A stretch of DNA of 64,000 nt from Comamonadaceae bacterium (lineage in GTDB: Bacteria > Pseudomonadota > Gammaproteobacteria > Burkholderiales > Burkholderiaceae_C), in the NCBI GenBank assembly GCA_007280205.1, contig QYPX01000081.1, forward strand, positions 1 through 64,000. The letters run 5' to 3'. Positions 48,365 to 59,496 of the stretch are shown here, in pieces; position 1 is the stretch's first letter; every line of letters begins with the position of its first letter. Below the pieces are notes generated by a model. That model was not told the DNA's origin and did not search any database. It saw only the letters and a list, made by a program, of their open reading frames with translations. A program made the position numbers and the translations under genes.

Positions 48365-51300
48365 GTGCACTTGCCTGTTCCTTATCGCGTTGAGGCCGAC
48401 ATCGTTTCGGCTCAGCTGTTGCGCCTGGCGGGCGCGCTGGATTGGGCCGCGGTGGCCCGTGCTGCCACACCCTGGGTGCAGGCAGTGCGCAGCAACCCGC
48501 CGCCGTTCTGGGCGCTCGAGAGCCTGCTGCAGGAGTACCCGATTTCCAGCGCCGAAGGGCTGGCCCTGATGCGTCTGGCCGAAGCGCTGCTGCGCGTGCC
48601 CGACGCCGAGACCGCGATTGCGTTGACCGCCGATCAGCTGGGGCGTGCCGACTTTGACGGCGCTGGTGACAAGACGCTGGCACGACTGTCGAGTACCGCC
48701 ATTGCCATGAGCAAGAAATTTCTGCCCGACAGCGAAGCGCCGAGCGGCATGTTTGCCAAGCTCGGTGCACGTTCGGTGGTGGCTGCCACCCTGCGGGCCG
48801 TGCAGTTGCTGGGCCGCCAGTTTGTGCTCGGGCAGACCATCAACGAGGCGATGGCTGAAGCCGCATCGGCCAGGCGCAAGATGAAGAACTTGCGCTACAG
48901 CTATGACATGCTGGGCGAAGGCGCGCGCACCGATGTCGATGCGCTGGCGTATTTGGCCAGCTACCAGCACGCCATTAAGGCGATCGCCGCCAACAGTGAT
49001 AAGGCCGGTGCCTGCGAACCCAACGACGGCATTTCGATCAAGCTTAGCGCCTTGCATCCGCGCTTTGAGGAGGCGCAGAAAGAGCGTGTGCTGGCCGAAC
49101 TGGTGCCACGTGTCTGGAGTCTGTGCGAGCAGGCGGCACGCGCCAACATCAACCTGACGATGGACTCCGAAGAGGTGGACCGGCTGGAACTTTCGCTGGA
49201 TGTATTCGAGGCGCTCGTCAGTCAGGTGGCGCAGCATTTCCCGCAGTGGGGCGGCTTTGGCCTGGCGCTGCAGACCTACCAGACACGTTCGCTGGAACTG
49301 GTCGAGCACGTGATCGCAGTGGCGCGGCGCTACCAGGTGCGCCTGATGTGTCGGCTGGTCAAGGGCGCTTACTGGGACGCCGAGATCAAACGTGCGCAGG
49401 AACTGGGCCTGCCCGCCTATCCGGTGTTCACCCACAAGCAGCATACCGATGTGTCTTACCTGGCCTGCGCCCGCACCCTGCTTGATGCGCCGGATGCGGT
49501 CTACCCGCAATTTGCCACGCACAACGCCGGCACCATTGCTGCCATCCTGCAGATGGCGAGCATGGCCCCCACGCTTGCCGCTTCGCCTGCTGCGCTGCCC
49601 CCCGAGGGGGCCTTCGCGCCTTGGGGCGGCCCGGCGGCGCTCAAACGTGGCCCCCAATTCGAGTTGCAGCGCCTGCATGGCATGGCTGAAGGCGTTTACC
49701 GCGAGGTGCTGAAGAACCCCTTGGTCGCCTGCCGCATTTATGCTCCGGTCGGTGCGCACAAGGACCTGCTGGCCTACCTGGTGCGCCGCCTGCTGGAAAA
49801 CGGCGCCAATTCGTCCTTTGTGCACCAGCTGGCAGATGAGAGAGTCGCTCTGCCCGACCTGCTGATCTCGCCGCTGCGCCTGGAGCCACAGGCGTCGCTG
49901 CCGCTGCCGCCTGAACTGTTCGGTGCTGCGCGCAAGAACAGCGCTGGCCTGGATTTGACGGTCGAGGCCATGCGGGAACCACTGTTCAGCGCGTACCGGG
50001 AAGTGACGGTTCCGCTGGTGCCGCTGTTCGATCTCCGCCTGCTCGGTGCTGCGATGGAAAAAAGCGGTGCGAGTTTCAGGAAGTGGAGCAAGACCGATCC
50101 TGCCCTGCGCTGTGCGGCTCTGCGTCGTGCAGCGGACGCGCTGGAACAACAACTGCCGAAATTTTGCGCGTTGCTGGTGAAGGAAGCTTTCAAGACCTGG
50201 GGCGATGCGGTCAGCGAAGTGCGCGAAGCTGTGGATTTCCTGCGTTACTACGCCGTTGAGGCTGATCGCATCATGGCGCCGATCGCCATGCCCGGTCCCA
50301 CCGGAGAATCCAACGAACTGCGCCTCATCGCGCGCGGACCCTGGGTTTGCATCAGCCCGTGGAACTTTCCACTGGCCATTTTCATGGGCCAGGTGGCAGC
50401 AGCATTGGCCACCGGCAACACGGTGCTGGCCAAACCGGCCGAGCAGACGCCGGGTGTGGCGCTGGAAGCGGTCAAGCTGCTGCACGCCGCGGGTGTACCT
50501 GAGGCTGCGCTGCAACTGTTGCACGGCCCCGGCGAAACCGTGGGCGCTGCGCTGGTGGCGGCGCCGGGTGTGGCGGGCGTCGTGTTTACCGGTTCCACTT
50601 CGGTTGCCAAAATCATTCATCGGGCGCTGGCCGCCAAGGACGGACCCATCGTTCCCCTGATTGCGGAGACCGGTGGCATCAACGCCATGCTGGTGGACAG
50701 CACGGCGCTGCCCGAGCAGGTCAGCGACGCCGTCATGCAGTCGGCCTTTCGCAGCGCCGGCCAGCGCTGCTCGGCGCTGCGCCTGCTGTGCGTGCACGCC
50801 GAGATTGCCGACCATGTGATCGAAATGATTCAGGGGGCGGCGAAGGAACTGGTGATCGGTGACCCGGCTGATCTGGCGACGGACTTGGGGCCGGTCATAG
50901 ACAAGGAGGCTTTTGACAATATTCAGAAGCACCTTCAAAGATTGCGCGCCACAGCCAGGTGTTGTCATGCCGTCCCCGGATCAGGTCCGGGGTTACAACA
51001 TCCGGCATCCATGCAATTGAGCAAACCCTGGATCCCGGCTCAAGGCCGGGATGACAAATATCGGGACCGGGATGACCAATATCGGGACCGGGATGACCAA
51101 TATCGGGGCCGGGATGGCATGTATTTCGTCTCGCCGCAAGCTTTCGAACTCAACTCCATCGCCGAGTTGCAGCAGGAAATCTTCGGGCCGGTGCTGCACA
51201 TCGTGCGCTGGAGTGGCGACCCGCTGGCCTTGATCGACCAGATCAACGCCTTGGGCTTCGGTCTGACACTGGGCATCCAGACCCGCATCGACAGCCGGGC

Positions 51301-51517
51301 ACAAGCGATGGCGCGACGCGCCCACATCGGCAATGTTTACATCAACCGCAACCAGATTGGCGCGGTCGTTGGCGTTCAGCCCTTTGGTGGCGAGGGCCTC
51401 TCGGGCACCGGCCCGAAAGCCGGTGGCCCGCATTACCTGTACCGCTTTTGCGCGGAGCAGACCATCACCGTCAACACCACCGCAGCAGGTGGCAATGCCG
51501 CCCTGCTGGCGGGCTGA
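48365..51517 (+). CDS. putA: Bifunctional proline dehydrogenase / delta-1-pyrroline-5-carboxylate dehydrogenase PutA
   Basis: A 1,050-residue two-domain enzyme oxidising proline to glutamate, with FAD in the first half and NAD in the second. Proline dehydrogenase motifs are RYSYDMLGEGA, ISIKLSALHPRF, RLVKGAYWDAEIKRAQEL and ELQRLHGMAEGVYREV. The second half has ISPWNFPLAIFMGQVAAAL, the glutamate in IAETGGINAML and the cysteine in SAGQRCSALRLL. There is no N-terminal ribbon-helix-helix, so it is not a self-repressor. Start is GTG with a gggaga site. Two stretches are foreign to the family: residues about 401-429 (alanine/proline-rich) and about 867-918, which is a translated palindromic repeat with YRDRDDQ heptads. 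Both keep the frame and fall at variable loops, so activity may be retained. Confidence 0.95.
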   Translation: MHLPVPYRVEADIVSAQLLRLAGALDWAAVARAATPWVQAVRSNPPPFWALESLLQEYPISSAEGLALMRLAEALLRVPDAETAIALTADQLGRADFDGAGDKTLARLSSTAIAMSKKFLPDSEAPSGMFAKLGARSVVAATLRAVQLLGRQFVLGQTINEAMAEAASARRKMKNLRYSYDMLGEGARTDVDALAYLASYQHAIKAIAANSDKAGACEPNDGISIKLSALHPRFEEAQKERVLAELVPRVWSLCEQAARANINLTMDSEEVDRLELSLDVFEALVSQVAQHFPQWGGFGLALQTYQTRSLELVEHVIAVARRYQVRLMCRLVKGAYWDAEIKRAQELGLPAYPVFTHKQHTDVSYLACARTLLDAPDAVYPQFATHNAGTIAAILQMASMAPTLAASPAALPPEGAFAPWGGPAALKRGPQFELQRLHGMAEGVYREVLKNPLVACRIYAPVGAHKDLLAYLVRRLLENGANSSFVHQLADERVALPDLLISPLRLEPQASLPLPPELFGAARKNSAGLDLTVEAMREPLFSAYREVTVPLVPLFDLRLLGAAMEKSGASFRKWSKTDPALRCAALRRAADALEQQLPKFCALLVKEAFKTWGDAVSEVREAVDFLRYYAVEADRIMAPIAMPGPTGESNELRLIARGPWVCISPWNFPLAIFMGQVAAALATGNTVLAKPAEQTPGVALEAVKLLHAAGVPEAALQLLHGPGETVGAALVAAPGVAGVVFTGSTSVAKIIHRALAAKDGPIVPLIAETGGINAMLVDSTALPEQVSDAVMQSAFRSAGQRCSALRLLCVHAEIADHVIEMIQGAAKELVIGDPADLATDLGPVIDKEAFDNIQKHLQRLRATARCCHAVPGSGPGLQHPASMQLSKPWIPAQGRDDKYRDRDDQYRDRDDQYRGRDGMYFVSPQAFELNSIAELQQEIFGPVLHIVRWSGDPLALIDQINALGFGLTLGIQTRIDSRAQAMARRAHIGNVYINRNQIGAVVGVQPFGGEGLSGTGPKAGGPHYLYRFCAEQTITVNTTAAGGNAALLAG
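49568..49648. repeat. In-frame GC-rich palindromic insertion in the proline dehydrogenase half of putA
   Basis: About 80 bases coding for an Ala/Pro/Gly-rich segment (ALPPEGAFAPWGGPAALKRG) lie between conserved TIAAILQMA and FELQRLHGM, which are normally separated by only a few residues. At its centre is the near-perfect palindrome gccccccgagggggc, followed by ttggggcggcccggcgg. From general knowledge, GC-rich elements of this type are common between genes in Comamonadaceae; I see no second copy in this window. Confidence 0.6.
50964..51120. repeat. Composite palindromic repeat inserted in frame in putA
   Basis: The order is gtcatgc, a ccccggatcaggtccgggg hairpin, a 30-base spacer, ctggatcccgg-ctcaag-gccgggatgac, then three 21-bp tandem units of the form atatcgggaccgggatgacca. 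The layout matches the intergenic copy at 40.53 kb, including an identical run of about 24 bases, and the 21-bp tail matches the one at 14.83 kb in period. Because 21 is a multiple of three, tail changes keep the reading frame. It adds about 50 residues between HLQRLRATAR and YFVSPQAFEL. Confidence 0.9.
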
Positions 51518-52355: not shown

Positions 52356-53495
52356 ATGAAATTGAAGAAGCTCGCGCTGGCGCAAGCCCTTGCATTGGTT
52401 TTGGCGACGGGGTCGGCTCTGGCCGATGTCACCATCGGCGTCATCGTTTCGGCCACCGGGCCGGCGGCCTCTCTGGGTATTCCGGAAAAGCAGACTTTTG
52501 CCCTGCTGCCGGCCACCCTGGGCGGCGAGAAGGTCAAGTACATCGTGCTGGACGACGCCACCGATCCGAGCACGGCCGTCAAGAACGCCCGCAAACTGAC
52601 TTCCGAAGACAAGGTGGACGCCATCATCGGCGCCACCGCCACGCCGACTTCAGCCGCCATTCTGGAAGTGGCATTTGAGAGCAAGACGCCGCAAATTGCC
52701 ATGGCGCCGACGGCACCCGCACCCGACAAGGCGCCCTGGGTCTTTATCACGCCGCAAAACTTCAAGCAGATGGCCATTGCGATTGTGGCGCACATGGCTG
52801 CCAACAATATCAAGACCGTCGGCTTCATTGGCTACGCCGACGCCTACGGCGAGCTCTGGCTCAAGGCCATGCAGGAAGCGGCTGCCGCCAAGGGCATCAC
52901 CTTGAGTGCAGTTGAGCGTTACCAGCGCAATGACACCAGCGTTGCCGGTCAGGCACTCAAGCTGCTGGCGGCCAAACCGGATGCGATTCTGGTTGCTGGA
53001 TCCGGTACGCCCGCCGTATTGCCGCAAGCCACGCTGATCGAGCGCGGCTACAAGGGCAAGTTCTACCAGACGCACGGCATTGCAAACCGCGACTTCCTGC
53101 GGGTTGGCGGCAAGAACGTCGAGGGCACGATATTTCCGGTGGGACCGATGTTGCTGGCAGAACAACTTCCCGACAGTCATCCTTCCAAAAAGCCGGCGCT
53201 GGAGTACGTCAAGTTGTTCGAGGCGACTAACGGCGCCCACAGTCGCTCCACTTTTGGTGGCCACGGCTGGGACGCTTACCTGCTGCTCAATCGGGCGGTC
53301 CCGGAAGCGATGAAGAAAGCCAAGCCCGGCACGGCCGAGTTTCGCGTTGCCTTGCGCGATGCGCTTGAGAACGTGAAGGAACTGCCCGCGGTGCATGGCG
53401 TGTTCAATATGTCGGCCACGGACCACAACGGCTTGGATGGCCGCGCGGCCATCATGGCCACTGTGGAAAACGGCGACTGGAAACTCGCCAGGTAA
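52356..53495 (+). CDS. Orphan Liv-type ABC transporter substrate-binding protein
   Basis: A 379-residue periplasmic binding protein of the branched-chain amino acid/amide class. The signal peptide ends near ATGSALADV; the mature protein begins VTIGVIVSATGPAASLGIPE and contains IVLDDATDPSTAVKNARKL, both family patterns. No permease or ATPase gene is adjacent, so it must serve a transporter encoded elsewhere (the one at 7.3-10.8 kb has its own binding protein). The start has a caggagac site. It ends 12 bases from the convergent SGNH gene. Confidence 0.92.
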   Translation: MKLKKLALAQALALVLATGSALADVTIGVIVSATGPAASLGIPEKQTFALLPATLGGEKVKYIVLDDATDPSTAVKNARKLTSEDKVDAIIGATATPTSAAILEVAFESKTPQIAMAPTAPAPDKAPWVFITPQNFKQMAIAIVAHMAANNIKTVGFIGYADAYGELWLKAMQEAAAAKGITLSAVERYQRNDTSVAGQALKLLAAKPDAILVAGSGTPAVLPQATLIERGYKGKFYQTHGIANRDFLRVGGKNVEGTIFPVGPMLLAEQLPDSHPSKKPALEYVKLFEATNGAHSRSTFGGHGWDAYLLLNRAVPEAMKKAKPGTAEFRVALRDALENVKELPAVHGVFNMSATDHNGLDGRAAIMATVENGDWKLAR

Positions 53496-53507: not shown

Positions 53508-54332
53508 TCAGGGCTTGAAGTACTCCTGCACCGTCTCCCAGGCGCTGCTCTGGAGGTGCTTGGCTGTCGCCTCATCGAGCCCGGCCGTGTAGCTCAAGCC
53601 GACCGGGGATTTTTTGAACAGCGACGCATAGACGGTGCAGGCAGCCAGATAAGTTCCGGCGACGCTGGGATGGCGCTTGTCTGGTACATAAAGATTGAGA
53701 TCGGGACGCTTGGCGATGGAACGCGCAAAAGCCAGCCCGGCCGGAATCACAAAAGCGTCGTTGTCGTTCGCCGCCTGGGTGTAGGCATCGGCCAGTTGCG
53801 CTGTCATTTCCGGCACATCGGAATAGGCCCAGGACATGAAGAACACCGGCTTGGTGCCATGCTTGCGCACCGTGTCGCTGTTCTTTTTTGCGTAATCGCG
53901 AAACACCGACTTGAGCTGCGGGTGAATCGGGCACTGGCTGCAGTCCATCATGATGGCGACGTCAAACAGGCGATCTACCTTGTTGAAGACGATATTGTTC
54001 CGGGAGTCGAATGAGTAGGCACTCACGGCGTTGGGCCGAAAGTAGGAATCGACGTCATGCCAGTCAAAGCCCGAGCCACTGATGGTGACCGAGACGCTGC
54101 GCAGGCGCTCCTTGCTGTCTGCCGCTCTGCGCAACTGACCGACATGATTGTGCAGACTGTTGTTGTAGTAAAAAAAGCTGTTGCCAACGTAGAGGATGGA
54201 CGCCGGGTTTTCCATGCCGAGCTCCAGTACCTTGGGCCTGGTTTGCGCAAGCAAGTCGCCCGACCACAGGAAGGCCAGCAGCAGTGAAAACAGCAGACTG
54301 GCGAGTCGGCCATTGCGGTGGTGTTTCAGCAT
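53508..54332 (-). CDS. Exported SGNH/GDSL-hydrolase-like protein
   Basis: A 274-residue protein with a signal peptide (LASLLFSLLLAFLWSGDLLAQ). The first SGNH block is ILYVGNSFFYYNNSLHNHV, where GNS carries the presumed nucleophilic serine, and the last block is PDKRHPSVAGTYLAACTVYA with the Asp-x-x-His pair. This pattern resembles DUF4886-like SGNH proteins, which are thought to be esterases or deacetylases acting on periplasmic or extracellular substrates. It is the last gene of a minus-strand set after the TonB-dependent receptor and an exported lyase-like protein, 44 bases from the latter, and may take part in processing the same compound. Confidence 0.75.
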   Translation of the reverse strand: MLKHHRNGRLASLLFSLLLAFLWSGDLLAQTRPKVLELGMENPASILYVGNSFFYYNNSLHNHVGQLRRAADSKERLRSVSVTISGSGFDWHDVDSYFRPNAVSAYSFDSRNNIVFNKVDRLFDVAIMMDCSQCPIHPQLKSVFRDYAKKNSDTVRKHGTKPVFFMSWAYSDVPEMTAQLADAYTQAANDNDAFVIPAGLAFARSIAKRPDLNLYVPDKRHPSVAGTYLAACTVYASLFKKSPVGLSYTAGLDEATAKHLQSSAWETVQEYFKP

Positions 54333-54376
54333 CGAGATACTCCTTTACTGTGTTTGCGTATCGGTCAGAACAGGGT

Positions 54377-55963
54377 TCATTGTCCAAGATACTTGAAAAA
54401 TGCGCTGTTGAGTTTGGCTTCGGCGTCGATCAGGCTGACGTTGCGAGCGGCCAGCCAGGCCTTGTCTCGGTTAACAGAGTCGCGCGCCAGGCCGAGCATG
54501 CGTTTGACTTCAGCCGGTTGCGGGCCGCCAATACCGACCCGGCTGCGCACCATGTCGTCGGGTGACAGCGTCGCGCGGAACACCTGCTCGCTCAAAGGAA
54601 ATTTGCCGTCGGTCAAACCGTCCTGCTTGATCGCTTCGGCGTACAGCTCAACTGCCCTGGCATAGGGAAACTGGCTCGGGCGCAGGTCCTTCTTGCGGGC
54701 ATCGGTCACGACCAGACTGGCAAAGTGATGGCCAATGCGAAACGGTACCTGGTGCAGACGTTGCAGTGTCTCGGCCAACTCCATGGAGGTGGTCCAGTCG
54801 CTGTTGAGTTCATCCAGCGAACGCTTCGGGTCCACCCGCAGCGCCTTGAGCACAGTGACGAACTGACTGAGCATCTCTACGGCCGAAACATAGGTGCCGG
54901 GTACCAGTTCCTTGTAGTCGGTCATGCCCGGCGTCACATTGTGCGCGTGCAAGGTCGCCCATTGCGCCAGCGCCACCACATCCGTCGCCTTGGTGCGGGC
55001 GCCCATGATGAGCCCAGGATTCTGCTTTTGCGGCATTGCGCTGCTGGTGTAGGTCTGGCTGGTGTCAAGCAGGATCCATGGCTTGCTTTGGTGGTACTGC
55101 GTATGCAGGTCCTGCATCATCGCGCCGACCCGGATCGCGGTGGAACTGACGATGCTGGCAGCTTCAATCGGCACATCGTAGGAGATGACCTGGCCGGAGT
55201 CGTAGGAGTTGAGCACCAGGCCGTCAAAGCCGAGCAGCTCAGCGAGCCGGTTGCGGTTCAGCGGCCAGCTTGAATTGGCCAGCACGGCCGTGCCCATCGG
55301 GCTCAGGTTCAGCCGCGCGTACAGCTCCTTGAGGCGCTGGCTGTCACGCGCAAACGAATCGGCAAAGGCCAGCAGGTAATGTGCGTAGCTCACTGGCTGC
55401 GCTTGTACGCCATTGGTATAGGCCGGCACAAAAGTTTCGGTGTTCTTGTCGGCAAAATCGATCAAGGCCGAGCGCGCAAGCAACAGTGCGTCCGCCGTGT
55501 CAAGCACTGCTGTGCGCAACTGGGCTACCCGGAAGGTAGCCAGCATGTCTTGCCGGCTGCGTCCGGAATGGATCAGCGTGGCCTCGGGACCGGCTTTTTC
55601 GGAAATGATTTTCTCGATCTGCAGCACGTCCTTGGGGCGCTTGCCCTTGGGCTCATCCGCCTGACGGATCGAATAGATCACGCCTTCGGCAATCGGCCTG
55701 GCCAGCTTGGCAGGAATGATGCCCTCTTCAAGCAGCATCGCGGTCGAAGCCATGTTGATCCGGCCCAGCCAGTAAAACTGATCCTGCGCCTTGGCCCGTG
55801 CGCTGGTTGCATCCTTGGTCACGGTGCCGCGCAGACGGTCGGCTTCGGCCTGGCATTCTGCCGTGGTCTTGCACGCGGTATCCCGAATATCGGCTGCGTG
55901 GCTGAAGCCAGACGCCAGAGCCATTGCCAGCAGCGCCAGCGGTTTCAGGGCGAAAGCTTTCAT
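54377..55963 (-). CDS. Exported argininosuccinate-lyase-like enzyme
   Basis: A 528-residue member of the fumarase/aspartase/argininosuccinate lyase superfamily that begins with a Sec signal peptide (LALLAMALASGFSHAADI), unlike ordinary cytoplasmic ArgH. Superfamily regions are visible: IHSGRSRQDMLATFRVAQL, TAVLANSSWPLNRNRLAELL, and the mobile catalytic loop YTSSAMPQKQNPGLIMGAR, matching GSSxMPxKxNP except for Thr at the first glycine. The family cleaves C-N bonds to release fumarate; one branch (EDDS lyase) degrades aminopolycarboxylate chelators. Being exported and next to a TonB-dependent receptor, it may cleave an imported compound in the periplasm. The substrate is unknown. Confidence 0.85.
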   Translation of the reverse strand: MKAFALKPLALLAMALASGFSHAADIRDTACKTTAECQAEADRLRGTVTKDATSARAKAQDQFYWLGRINMASTAMLLEEGIIPAKLARPIAEGVIYSIRQADEPKGKRPKDVLQIEKIISEKAGPEATLIHSGRSRQDMLATFRVAQLRTAVLDTADALLLARSALIDFADKNTETFVPAYTNGVQAQPVSYAHYLLAFADSFARDSQRLKELYARLNLSPMGTAVLANSSWPLNRNRLAELLGFDGLVLNSYDSGQVISYDVPIEAASIVSSTAIRVGAMMQDLHTQYHQSKPWILLDTSQTYTSSAMPQKQNPGLIMGARTKATDVVALAQWATLHAHNVTPGMTDYKELVPGTYVSAVEMLSQFVTVLKALRVDPKRSLDELNSDWTTSMELAETLQRLHQVPFRIGHHFASLVVTDARKKDLRPSQFPYARAVELYAEAIKQDGLTDGKFPLSEQVFRATLSPDDMVRSRVGIGGPQPAEVKRMLGLARDSVNRDKAWLAARNVSLIDAEAKLNSAFFKYLGQ

Positions 55964-56005
55964 ATCGATCTACTCCTTGAAAAGAATTGTTATGACGTGG
56001 CAAGC

Positions 56006-58261
56006 TTACAGCTTGAGCTCCAGCCGCAACTGCAGACTGCGCCAGGACGGTGACGTGTTGGTGACGCTCTCGCGCAGCGCCTGAGCGGAGGCGTTGCTCG
56101 AATCCAGCGTGTTGCTCGTTACATAATCGCGCGCTGCCAGATTGCCCAGCGAGAAGCGCAACTGGCTGGTCGGATTCAGCACCCAGAGCACGAAGGCGTC
56201 GAGTACCAGTTTGGCGCTTTGCACCACGCGCTGGTCGTCACTCAGGCGCGTGGTGTAGCCCGGCGTCCAGTTGAGGTTGCCACCAAAGCTCAGTGGCATG
56301 TCGCGCAGCCGGTAATCGGCGCCCAGGTTGGCCGTGCCATTGGGCTGCTGCGAGAGTCGGTTGTCGGGCGCCGGCACGCCTTGCACGCGCGAAGTGAACA
56401 GGCTGATGTTGCTGCGCACGTCAACGCGTGGTGCCTCTGGCCACAGGTCGCTGGCGCGGAACTTGGCTTCCAGTTCCAGACCCTGGGTAATGGCATCACC
56501 GATGTTTTGCAGTCGTGCCACCCAGCGCGGCGAATCGGCCCAGGAGACCGTCTCCAGCGTTGTCTGGCTGCGCATCAGGTTGCTGATGTGGCGGTAGAAC
56601 AGGTTGGCGCTGAGCATGCCGCTGCCGGGCAGGAAGCGCTCCATTGCAATGTCCAGACCGCTGGCCAGTTCCGGCTTGAGCTCCGGATTGCCGCCACGAT
56701 CCGGGTGCAATTCGTCATTGGGGCCGCGTCCGGGGAACATGCCGGAGATGCGTGGCCGCGCAATCAGGTCCTGCAAACCGGGTGAGCGGTAGCTGCGCGT
56801 CAGGCTGGCGCGCAACTGGTCCCGGTAGGGCGAATCGAACTTCCAGACCGCATGCAAGAGCGGTGTCCAGACACTGCTCTGGTTGCGTGCTTCGGGCATA
56901 CCCGTGGCAGTGCTGCCCTGGGTGCTGATGCCTTCCCAGCGCAAGCCGGCGTGCGCAGCCAGCTGGCGTGTCACCGACCATTCGTCCTGCGCGTAGAGGG
57001 CTGCACGCAGACTCGACGCCGTGAGATTGCCATCGAACTCCGTCAGGGGCGACTCACCATCCTGCAAGGTCGTCGCAACTTCGCGGCGGCGGTTGCTTTG
57101 CAACTCGGCGCCGGTTACCAGGTTGTGGTCGTTGGCCAGCGTCTTGGTCAGTTTGGCACTGGCGCTGAAGTTGAGGTCATGCTGCTCGGAGCGGTTGTCC
57201 GATTGGCCGACGGTAGGACTGGAGCCAAAGTACTGACGCAGCGAAGCATTGTCCCAATCGCTTTGTCCCAGCGTGGCGCGCAGTTGCCAGTTGCCGCCGT
57301 CCGGTAGCCGGTGCATCCATTGGGCACCCAGGCGCAGGCTGCTGAAGCGGTTGGCGCCGGAGCCGCTGGCGCTGTCAAAGGGTGCCGTACCACCGATTTG
57401 CGTCAGGCTGCTGCTGCTCAGGCTGGAACTCTGTGATTGCACCAGCATGGGCGTCAGCACCAGGGTGTCGCCCTGTTCACCGCGCCACTGCAGGCGGCCA
57501 TTGGCCTGGATGGCGTCGCGCTGGCTGGATGACTGTGTGCGTTCAAGCCGGTCAATCAGCTCGCCGCTGTCCAGGTTTTCTATGGTGGTGTGGCTGCTGC
57601 TGTCGTTGCTGCGCTCGCCGTGCTGGGCCGACAGCGAGACGTTGTAGATCCAGTTGCCTGCCACTTCGTTGTGGATCCAGGAGACGCCGGGCTGCTGGTT
57701 GCCGTTCTCCAGGCCCAGCCCCAGGCGCAGATCATTGAGCCGCTTGCTGTAGCCGCCGCGCGTCACGATGTTGATGGTGCCGCCGATGGCGCGGGCACCG
57801 GTTTCGGCCGTGGGTGCGCGCAGGATTTCGATGCGCTCAATCTGCTCGGGCGAGAGTTCGTCGAGCGAGAAGCCACGCGGCGCCGGCTCGCCGTCAATCA
57901 GGATCTGGGTGTAGCCGCCGCCCAGCCCACGCATGCGGGGTGCGCCGCCGCGCCCAGGCCTGCCGGGCATGGTGACGCCCGGCAGGCGTTTGAGCAACTC
58001 CCCCACGGTGCTGTCGCCAAAGCGTTCGATTTCGTCACGCCCGACAATGATCTTGCTGGCGGTGGACTGACGTCGCGCTTCGGTGTCGTCGATTGCTGCG
58101 CCGACGATGGTGACTGGTTTGAGTTCGCCGGTACTGCGTTGGGGCGACGCGGGGCGGCCTGATTCCATCAGAGCAGGGGCAGAGTCCGGCGTCTGGGCCT
58201 GCGCCGACAGGGTTGCGGCGAGTATCAACGGGCCGAGCCAGCGCTTGACTGCACTCATCAT
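56006..58261 (-). CDS. TonB-dependent outer-membrane receptor
   Basis: A 751-residue receptor. A signal peptide (LGPLILAATLSAQAQ) is followed by a short linker and a plug domain at about 60-170, with VGELLKRLPGVTMPGRPGRG, ILIDGEPAPRGFSLDELSPE, IERIEILRAPTAETGARAIG and GTINIVTRGG. The rest is the 22-strand barrel. The last residues are LQLRLELKL, ending in leucine rather than the usual phenylalanine. It is the first gene of a three-gene minus-strand set with the exported lyase-like enzyme (42 bases on) and the SGNH protein, so it likely imports their substrate: a metal chelate or other compound too large for porins. No Fur-box-like sequence is obvious before it. Confidence 0.92.
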   Translation of the reverse strand: MMSAVKRWLGPLILAATLSAQAQTPDSAPALMESGRPASPQRSTGELKPVTIVGAAIDDTEARRQSTASKIIVGRDEIERFGDSTVGELLKRLPGVTMPGRPGRGGAPRMRGLGGGYTQILIDGEPAPRGFSLDELSPEQIERIEILRAPTAETGARAIGGTINIVTRGGYSKRLNDLRLGLGLENGNQQPGVSWIHNEVAGNWIYNVSLSAQHGERSNDSSSHTTIENLDSGELIDRLERTQSSSQRDAIQANGRLQWRGEQGDTLVLTPMLVQSQSSSLSSSSLTQIGGTAPFDSASGSGANRFSSLRLGAQWMHRLPDGGNWQLRATLGQSDWDNASLRQYFGSSPTVGQSDNRSEQHDLNFSASAKLTKTLANDHNLVTGAELQSNRRREVATTLQDGESPLTEFDGNLTASSLRAALYAQDEWSVTRQLAAHAGLRWEGISTQGSTATGMPEARNQSSVWTPLLHAVWKFDSPYRDQLRASLTRSYRSPGLQDLIARPRISGMFPGRGPNDELHPDRGGNPELKPELASGLDIAMERFLPGSGMLSANLFYRHISNLMRSQTTLETVSWADSPRWVARLQNIGDAITQGLELEAKFRASDLWPEAPRVDVRSNISLFTSRVQGVPAPDNRLSQQPNGTANLGADYRLRDMPLSFGGNLNWTPGYTTRLSDDQRVVQSAKLVLDAFVLWVLNPTSQLRFSLGNLAARDYVTSNTLDSSNASAQALRESVTNTSPSWRSLQLRLELKL

Positions 58262-58512: not shown

Positions 58513-59496
58513 ATGAAACGTTTATTGGTTCTGGCCGCCGCCGTAACGGCGTTGTTTGCGAATGCACAGAGTTTTCCGGGCAGCAAGCCGATCACCTTCG
58601 TGGTTCCGTTTGCTGCCGGGGGTCCCACCGACCGGGTCGCACGTGACTTGGCGGAAGCCATGCGCAAGACCCTGCCCGGCGGCAATTTTGTGGTGGAAAA
58701 TGTCAATGGTGCAGGGGGCACGATCGGGTCAACCAAAGTCGCCAAAGCCAGCCCCGATGGGCATACCCTGCTGTTGTGGCATATCGGCATGGCTGCCACA
58801 GCGGGCTTGTACCGCAAGCTGCAATACAAGCCGCTGGAAGACTTTGAATACCTTGGTATGGTCAACGATGTGCCCATGACCCTGATTGGCAAGCCTCAAT
58901 TGCCAGCCAACACTTACCGTGATTTTGAGAACTACATCAAGGCCAATAGCGGCAAGCTCAACATTGCGCACGCCGGTCTGGGTTCGGCCTCCCACCTGTG
59001 CGGCCTGATGTGGCAGTCGGCAGTCAACGCCAAAGAGGCGATGACGACCATTCCTTACGGTGGAACAGCGCCCGCCATGACGGCCTTGATGGGTGGCCAG
59101 GTGGACGTGATGTGCGATCAGACCACCAACACGGTGACGCAGATTGAGGCGGGGCGGGTCAAGGCCTTTGCCGTGACGACCCCAACGCGCCTGTCATCGC
59201 ACAAAGTCCTCAAGGACTACCCGACACTCGACGAGATGGGGATGCGGGGCTTCAATCTGACGATCTGGCATGGACTGTACGCGCCCAAGGGTACACCGGC
59301 GCCGATACTCAAACAGCTCAATGACGCCATGAAGCTGGCGCTCAAAGACCCGGACTTCATCAAGAAACAAGAAGGTCTTGGTGCGGTTGTGGTGACCGAC
59401 GCTCGCATGGAGCCAGCGGGTCACAAAGCCTTTGTCGCCGCTGAAATCGCGAAACTCAAACCCGCCATTGAAGCTGCAGGAAAGTTTGCCGACTAA
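58513..59496 (+). CDS. Bug-family (TctC) solute receptor
   Basis: A 327-residue periplasmic binding protein. The short signal peptide ends LFANAQSF, and the mature protein has SKPITFVVPFAAGGPTDRVA and VVENVNGAGGTIGSTKVAK, typical Bug segments. The start follows an aggag box at good distance. It is divergent from the TonB receptor set and followed by a strong terminator, so it is a single-gene unit. No TctA/TctB pump genes are near, the third such orphan receptor in the window. Ligand unknown; if co-regulated with the receptor set it might bind a carboxylate product of that system. Confidence 0.92.
   Translation: MKRLLVLAAAVTALFANAQSFPGSKPITFVVPFAAGGPTDRVARDLAEAMRKTLPGGNFVVENVNGAGGTIGSTKVAKASPDGHTLLLWHIGMAATAGLYRKLQYKPLEDFEYLGMVNDVPMTLIGKPQLPANTYRDFENYIKANSGKLNIAHAGLGSASHLCGLMWQSAVNAKEAMTTIPYGGTAPAMTALMGGQVDVMCDQTTNTVTQIEAGRVKAFAVTTPTRLSSHKVLKDYPTLDEMGMRGFNLTIWHGLYAPKGTPAPILKQLNDAMKLALKDPDFIKKQEGLGAVVVTDARMEPAGHKAFVAAEIAKLKPAIEAAGKFAD

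Follow-up and report, generated by a model that had tools for sequence, protein, structure and literature searches.

A signal-peptide-bearing clade of the aspartase/fumarase superfamily and its pairing with a TonB-dependent receptor in one genus of Comamonadaceae

A member of the aspartase/fumarase superfamily encoded in the 64,000-nucleotide stretch of Comamonadaceae DNA analyzed here (hereafter, the window) carries, as judged by comparison with its relatives, a signal peptide and the mature features of an exported enzyme, and it falls within a clade of predicted exported lyases that is distinct from argininosuccinate lyase (ArgH) and the sampled cytoplasmic cousins. Members of this superfamily are textbook cytoplasmic enzymes that assemble into homotetramers with composite active sites and release fumarate. 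We favor a model, to which we assign a probability of about 60%, in which the lyase would cleave an imported succinyl-type compound in the periplasm to yield fumarate for scavenging of carbon and nitrogen, with a TonB-dependent receptor (TBDR) acting as the gate.

The lyase is the second of three genes on the minus strand of the window. The first gene of the presumed transcript (56006–58261) encodes a TBDR of 751 amino acids that contains both the plug (PF07715; E = 2e-21) and the barrel (PF00593; E = 1.4e-41). The lyase gene (54377–55963) encodes 528 amino acids that match Lyase_1 (PF00206; E = 8.6e-22) with 79 bits against a cut-off of 27. The third gene (53508–54332) encodes an exported protein of 274 amino acids whose score for DUF4886 (PF16227; E = 3.9e-9) of 36.3 bits exceeds the Pfam cut-off of 26.7 and which displays the SGNH-type motifs GNS (residues 50–52) and DKRH (residues 218–221). 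Gaps of 42 bases (TBDR to lyase) and 44 bases (lyase to SGNH) separate the genes, each with a ribosome-binding-like AGGAG; open reading frames and Pfam matches thus bear out the arrangement that the original prediction described. A scan for promoters and terminators scored no better than shuffled sequences. The GC3 of the three genes (76–80%) is similar to that of their neighbors, so they show no mark of a recent foreign insert. Divergent from the TBDR gene lies a plus-strand gene for a TctC/Bug solute-binding protein (58513–59496; PF03401, 182 bits), a possible accessory to the system. The convergent plus-strand neighbor on the other side (52356–53495) encodes a Peripla_BP_6 solute-binding protein (PF13458, 155 bits) that we do not claim as part of the system.

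The N-terminus of the lyase resembles a Sec signal peptide. The protein begins with MKAFALKPLALLAMALASGFSHA (residues 1–23; 55895–55963), and predicted cleavage after SHA would leave a mature protein starting at ADIRD (ADIRDTACKTTAEC). Comparison with eight close homologues reveals a step in identity at this site, from 4–10 of 23 residues before it to 21–31 of 37 just after it. A similar N-terminus is present in all ten orthologues found among 200 genomes of the family. A scan of bacterial genomes in which 80 loci were kept, of 336 confirmed relatives among the matches listed, refutes the idea that the lyase is a single odd gene; simple signal-peptide criteria (hydropathy and a cleavage motif) were passed by 72 of the 80, and most of the remaining eight were either borderline or missed because the motif anchor failed. 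The mature proteins are nearly devoid of cysteine. No cysteine follows residue 60 in 84 of 88 exported lyases, and the mean number beyond that residue is 0.06 in this group (n = 88), 4.5 in cytoplasmic cousins (n = 8), and 3.8 in ArgH (n = 14). Near the N-terminus, 69 of 88 exported homologues carry a C-x5-C pair, whereas none of 22 cytoplasmic relatives does, a combination that fits an oxidizing compartment. In the window lyase this pair, C31 and C37 (55853–55873), comprises the only two cysteines and likely forms a periplasmic disulfide. Signal peptides, the identity step, and cysteine loss together uphold the earlier proposal that the lyase is exported, insofar as sequence comparison can speak to location.

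The same proposal held that a periplasmic member of the family would be new, a view that survives in part. In a proteomic study, three proteins named "argininosuccinate lyases" and predicted to bear signal peptides were identified by LC-MS/MS in the periplasmic fraction of Achromobacter xylosoxidans LC1373 (PMC11533796, Table 2). Location was partly pre-empted by that table, but recognition of the anomaly was not: the authors took the proteins to be enzymes of arginine biosynthesis and Tat substrates and passed over them without calling them anomalous. These proteins resemble the exported clade in their ArgH annotation and predicted signal peptides, a likeness that is by annotation only; members of the clade are present in other Achromobacter species. 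Beyond this table, our literature search returned nothing on an exported family of ArgH-like lyases, and we consider the periplasmic location partly pre-empted, glimpsed in a proteomic table and unrecognized in the literature searched.

In a maximum-likelihood tree, the exported lyases form a single clade with support of 100/100, all 35 of them lying on one side of the branch. ArgH forms a separate clade with the same support, and the cytoplasmic cousins and ethylenediaminedisuccinate (EDDS) lyase likewise stand apart. EDDS lyase falls outside the exported clade in the best tree, although a tree that joins the two is not rejected (p-AU of 0.18). Hosts of the clade include Acidovorax, Variovorax, Pseudomonas, Azotobacter, Bradyrhizobium, Bordetella, and Achromobacter, among others, and its members are usually annotated as argininosuccinate lyase. 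The ArgH model TIGR00838 gives the window lyase 198 bits, below the NCBIfam cut-off of 279.5, and its closest solved structure is EDDS lyase (6g3d; E = 8e-45 over residues 62–518). The phylogeny thus places the enzyme apart from ArgH, and EDDS lyase is its nearest solved relative, both in support of the original prediction. The genome contains a separate ArgH-like gene on another contig (C102), and contig C211 carries one more Lyase_1 gene, which we take from its sequence to be PurB. An ArgH with a mis-called start is refuted by the signal peptide, the loss of cysteines, the separate clade, and the separate ArgH-like gene; a viral origin was rejected as well, no relatives having been detected among viral contigs. 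A branch of a cytoplasmic superfamily appears to be periplasmic across Beta-, Gamma-, and Alphaproteobacteria while filed under arginine biosynthesis. If this is true, genome annotation and metabolic modeling are in error for hundreds of species.

We aligned 22 sequences to assess the active site. Within the catalytic loop TSSAMPQKQNP (residues 306–316; 55016–55048), S307, S308, K313, and N315 are invariant in this alignment and conform to the pattern SSxMPxKxN. S308 aligns with S281 of EDDS lyase from Chelativorans sp. BNC1 (PDB 6g3d/6g3h), which shares the serine loop, the lysine, and the asparagine. ArgH belongs to the same superfamily and lends its name to many homologues in databases, but the window lyase differs from it in more than export. 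GRSxQD stands in place of GRSRND. The Thr-His pair of ArgH, which EDDS lyase also lacks (Thr-Gln), is replaced by T183-N184, and the ArgH signature YNKDxQEDKE is lost: the window lyase reads MTDYKELV, and a clade-specific HN...GM..K motif is found instead. Substrate contacts in EDDS lyase are made by R112, N113, Q159, N288, D290, and Y320 (PMC12363623). The equivalents of R112 and N288 are kept in the window lyase, whereas N113, Q159, and D290 correspond to Q138, N184, and G317; the region of Y320 lacks a confident alignment. Because the serine loop is kept while signature positions are replaced, the lyase appears to be catalytically competent but to have a remodeled pocket, consistent with the original prediction of a catalytically plausible non-ArgH lyase. 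EDDS lyase differs in that no export is described for it in the literature searched. The window enzyme, by these comparisons, resembles an EDDS-lyase-type enzyme that has been moved to the periplasm; it fails membership in ArgH, and classification as EDDS lyase is not warranted either.

The genes surrounding exported lyases in other bacteria are of uptake types. In 18 of 27 Pseudomonas/Azotobacter-type loci listed, an OprD-family porin gene lies immediately upstream on the same strand with a gap of 17–99 bp, and in 19 of the 27 an SDF-family dicarboxylate symporter adjoins the lyase (one gene further away in one case); a LysR regulator usually lies beyond the symporter. Farther out, the flanking genes of many of these loci differ from one to the next. 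Two sampled genomes contain 31 and 12 OprD matches but only 4 and 8 SDF genes in all; with so few SDF genes per genome, the adjacency is not attributable to chance, with the caveat that related species do not count as independent cases. Recurrent neighbors among the Burkholderiales loci listed are TctC/Bug proteins, which occur at 13 loci overall, and trimeric porins, which occur at 7; these TctC-type neighbors match the window TctC as members of one family. Many lyases of the clade, above all those on plasmids, are solitary, and in one metagenome-assembled genome (MAG) the lyase ends an NMT1-type ABC transporter operon. Of 59 large proteins encoded within ~8 kb of the listed lyases, 5 are TBDRs, and none of the three TBDRs inspected is adjacent, which refutes a family-wide linkage to TBDRs.

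Several of these neighborhoods merit individual description. The SDF symporters beside the lyase at L102 (9583–10830) and L070 (9747–10853) are divergent, scoring 206–236 bits compared with 343–412 for others in the same genomes, and may have a special substrate. In six related species of Bradyrhizobium, a homospermidine-synthase-like gene (saccharopine dehydrogenase fold) immediately precedes the gene for the exported lyase, and an ornithine/diaminopimelate-decarboxylase-like gene is nearby; these enzymes may act on a substrate derived from polyamines. In an Azohydromonas-like MAG (L061, 3497–9521), another TBDR is followed by a fumarylacetoacetate-hydrolase-family gene and then by an exported lyase. 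Signal-less cousins of the lyase (~31% identity; L045, 1157–3859, as well as L046 and L047) adjoin a TctC/Bug binding protein, whose gene in L045 is immediately downstream. This arrangement suggests that the cousins are cytoplasmic lyases fed by tripartite-type uptake.

Within the genus of the window, the TBDR-lyase pair is genuine but narrowly distributed, a conclusion that follows from comparison of congeners and from the contexts of the TBDR and SGNH genes across the family. Three of 89 genomes in the genus carry an orthologue of the window-type lyase at high identity, and all three contain the pair. One of them (G484; 90.5% DNA identity) retains the whole block from the Peripla_BP_6 gene through SGNH, lyase, and TBDR to TctC on two contigs that are broken inside the lyase, with proteins 95–100% identical to those of the window. 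In a more distant congener (G443), the TBDR and lyase (77% and 88% identity, respectively) are 45 bp apart with different genes on both sides, which refutes the view that the TBDR link is entirely unconserved. Between the window and G443, the lyase shows a dN/dS of ~0.13 and the TBDR one of ~0.24. Congeners with more distant exported lyases (47–58% identity) have neither a TBDR nor an SGNH gene beside the lyase. The proposed link between receptor and lyase accordingly holds for G484 and G443 but does not extend to other bacteria, where porins, the symporter, Bug/TctC proteins, and LysR are the usual partners. The SGNH protein, which had been assigned a part in the mechanism, fares worse: no homologue was detected in G443 and its orthologues in other genomes of the family are solitary, refuting it as a conserved partner. 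It is a weak associate that probably lies outside the core function.

These data bear on the possibility that the trio is an incidental neighborhood, in which a single transcript joins three accessory genes that are each useful on their own. TBDR orthologues occur in 116 of 399 genomes of the family (E ≤ 1e-100), where they adjoin liv-type ABC operons or unrelated genes; the TBDR and SGNH genes are thus widespread and apart, and the lyase is often solitary. Set against this are the survival of the pair at a spacing of 42–45 bp amid different flanks in G443 and the purifying selection on both genes, and we regard an incidental neighborhood as unlikely. At four loci (L183, L185, L186, and L197), orthologues of the window TBDR adjoin a complete liv-type ABC transporter operon, and three of these additionally have genes for a TctC protein and an acyl-CoA-synthetase-like protein in their vicinity; TBDR and liv-type operon may constitute a conserved uptake system without a lyase. 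Shared ancestry between the solute-binding proteins of the window and those beside TBDR orthologues elsewhere was considered and rejected, since TctC matches at the family level only and no Peripla_BP_6 counterpart was found.

The retained serine loop, the lost ArgH signature, and the context of OprD and dicarboxylate symporter lead us to favor periplasmic cleavage of a succinyl compound. The TBDR would admit an external compound bearing a succinyl group on nitrogen (or on sulfur or oxygen), a role that OprD or a trimeric porin would fill in other bacteria. The lyase would then catalyze β-elimination in the periplasm to generate fumarate and a free amine (or thiol or alcohol). The products would be taken up, fumarate through a C4-dicarboxylate carrier, and the pathway would serve to scavenge carbon and nitrogen; the SGNH gene would ride along without being essential to the unit. 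Lyases of this superfamily have low equilibrium constants, with values of 0.0046–0.0067 for the lyase 2SL (PMC9706529). Breakdown would consequently need low fumarate, a level that a neighboring dicarboxylate carrier would ensure; on the other hand, we noticed no gene of DctA type adjoining those of the window. Use of a TBDR suggests that in this genus the substrate is bulky, scarce, or metal-bound. TBDRs are rare around other members of the clade, and so the tie between receptor and substrate rests on three congeneric genomes. If the model is correct, there is a periplasmic route from succinylated compounds to fumarate, and the substrate is directly findable through the cultured hosts Pseudomonas, Acidovorax, and Azotobacter. 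The clade might also be a source of exported C-N lyases for use in biocatalysis.

Readings that involve metals receive less weight. TBDRs often carry metal chelates, and the one here is paired with a lyase whose closest solved relative is EDDS lyase. It is tempting to speculate that TBDR and periplasmic C-N lyase suffice as a unit for the import of an aminopolycarboxylate, possibly metal-loaded, and its breakdown outside the cytoplasm, and that they represent one variant of the gate in a wider, unrecognized family of exported fumarate-releasing lyases; we consider this unlikely. The fuller version in the original prediction, in which the TBDR imports a metal-loaded aminopolycarboxylate from which lyase and SGNH protein release metal and fumarate in the periplasm, gains from a study in which EDDS lyase served to produce toxin A, itself a precursor of aminopolycarboxylates found in nature (PMC10792612). 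It loses from the window itself, which contains neither a Fur-like nor a Zur-like site and whose TBDR scores 95 bits with the TonB-dependent siderophore receptor model TIGR01783 (NCBIfam cut-off 223.5), no curated siderophore-receptor model passing its cut-off. The replaced EDDS-lyase contacts, the porins and dicarboxylate carrier that are the usual partners elsewhere, and the failure of SGNH to be conserved with the pair count against it as well, making dismantling of a metallophore quite unlikely.

Salvage from decaying matter of S-succinated thiols, for instance S-(2-succino)cysteine or peptides that carry the modification, would be a special case of the favored succinyl-cleavage model. By description, 2SL belongs to the same lyase class (class I), acts in the breakdown direction on S-succino bonds, and releases fumarate, as proposed for the window lyase (PMC9706529). 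However, 2SL strongly prefers an N-acetylated substrate and is described in yxe clusters with no mention of export, and no yxe-type acetylation genes were noticed near the window lyase; we give this special case a small probability. Finally, operation in the synthetic direction, with an amine added to fumarate outside the cytoplasm to make, for example, a secreted metallophore, is favored by the equilibrium of these lyases (PMC9706529) but highly improbable, given that periplasmic fumarate should be low and that the neighboring genes are of uptake types (OprD, SDF, TBDR, and TctC) rather than exporters.

Elsewhere in the window, a putA-like open reading frame (48365–51517) contains an in-frame insert of a short repeat (WIPAQGRDDKYRDRDDQYRDRDDQYRGRD) at ~51020–51130. 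This insert resembles dispersed intergenic repeats that have landed within a coding gene.
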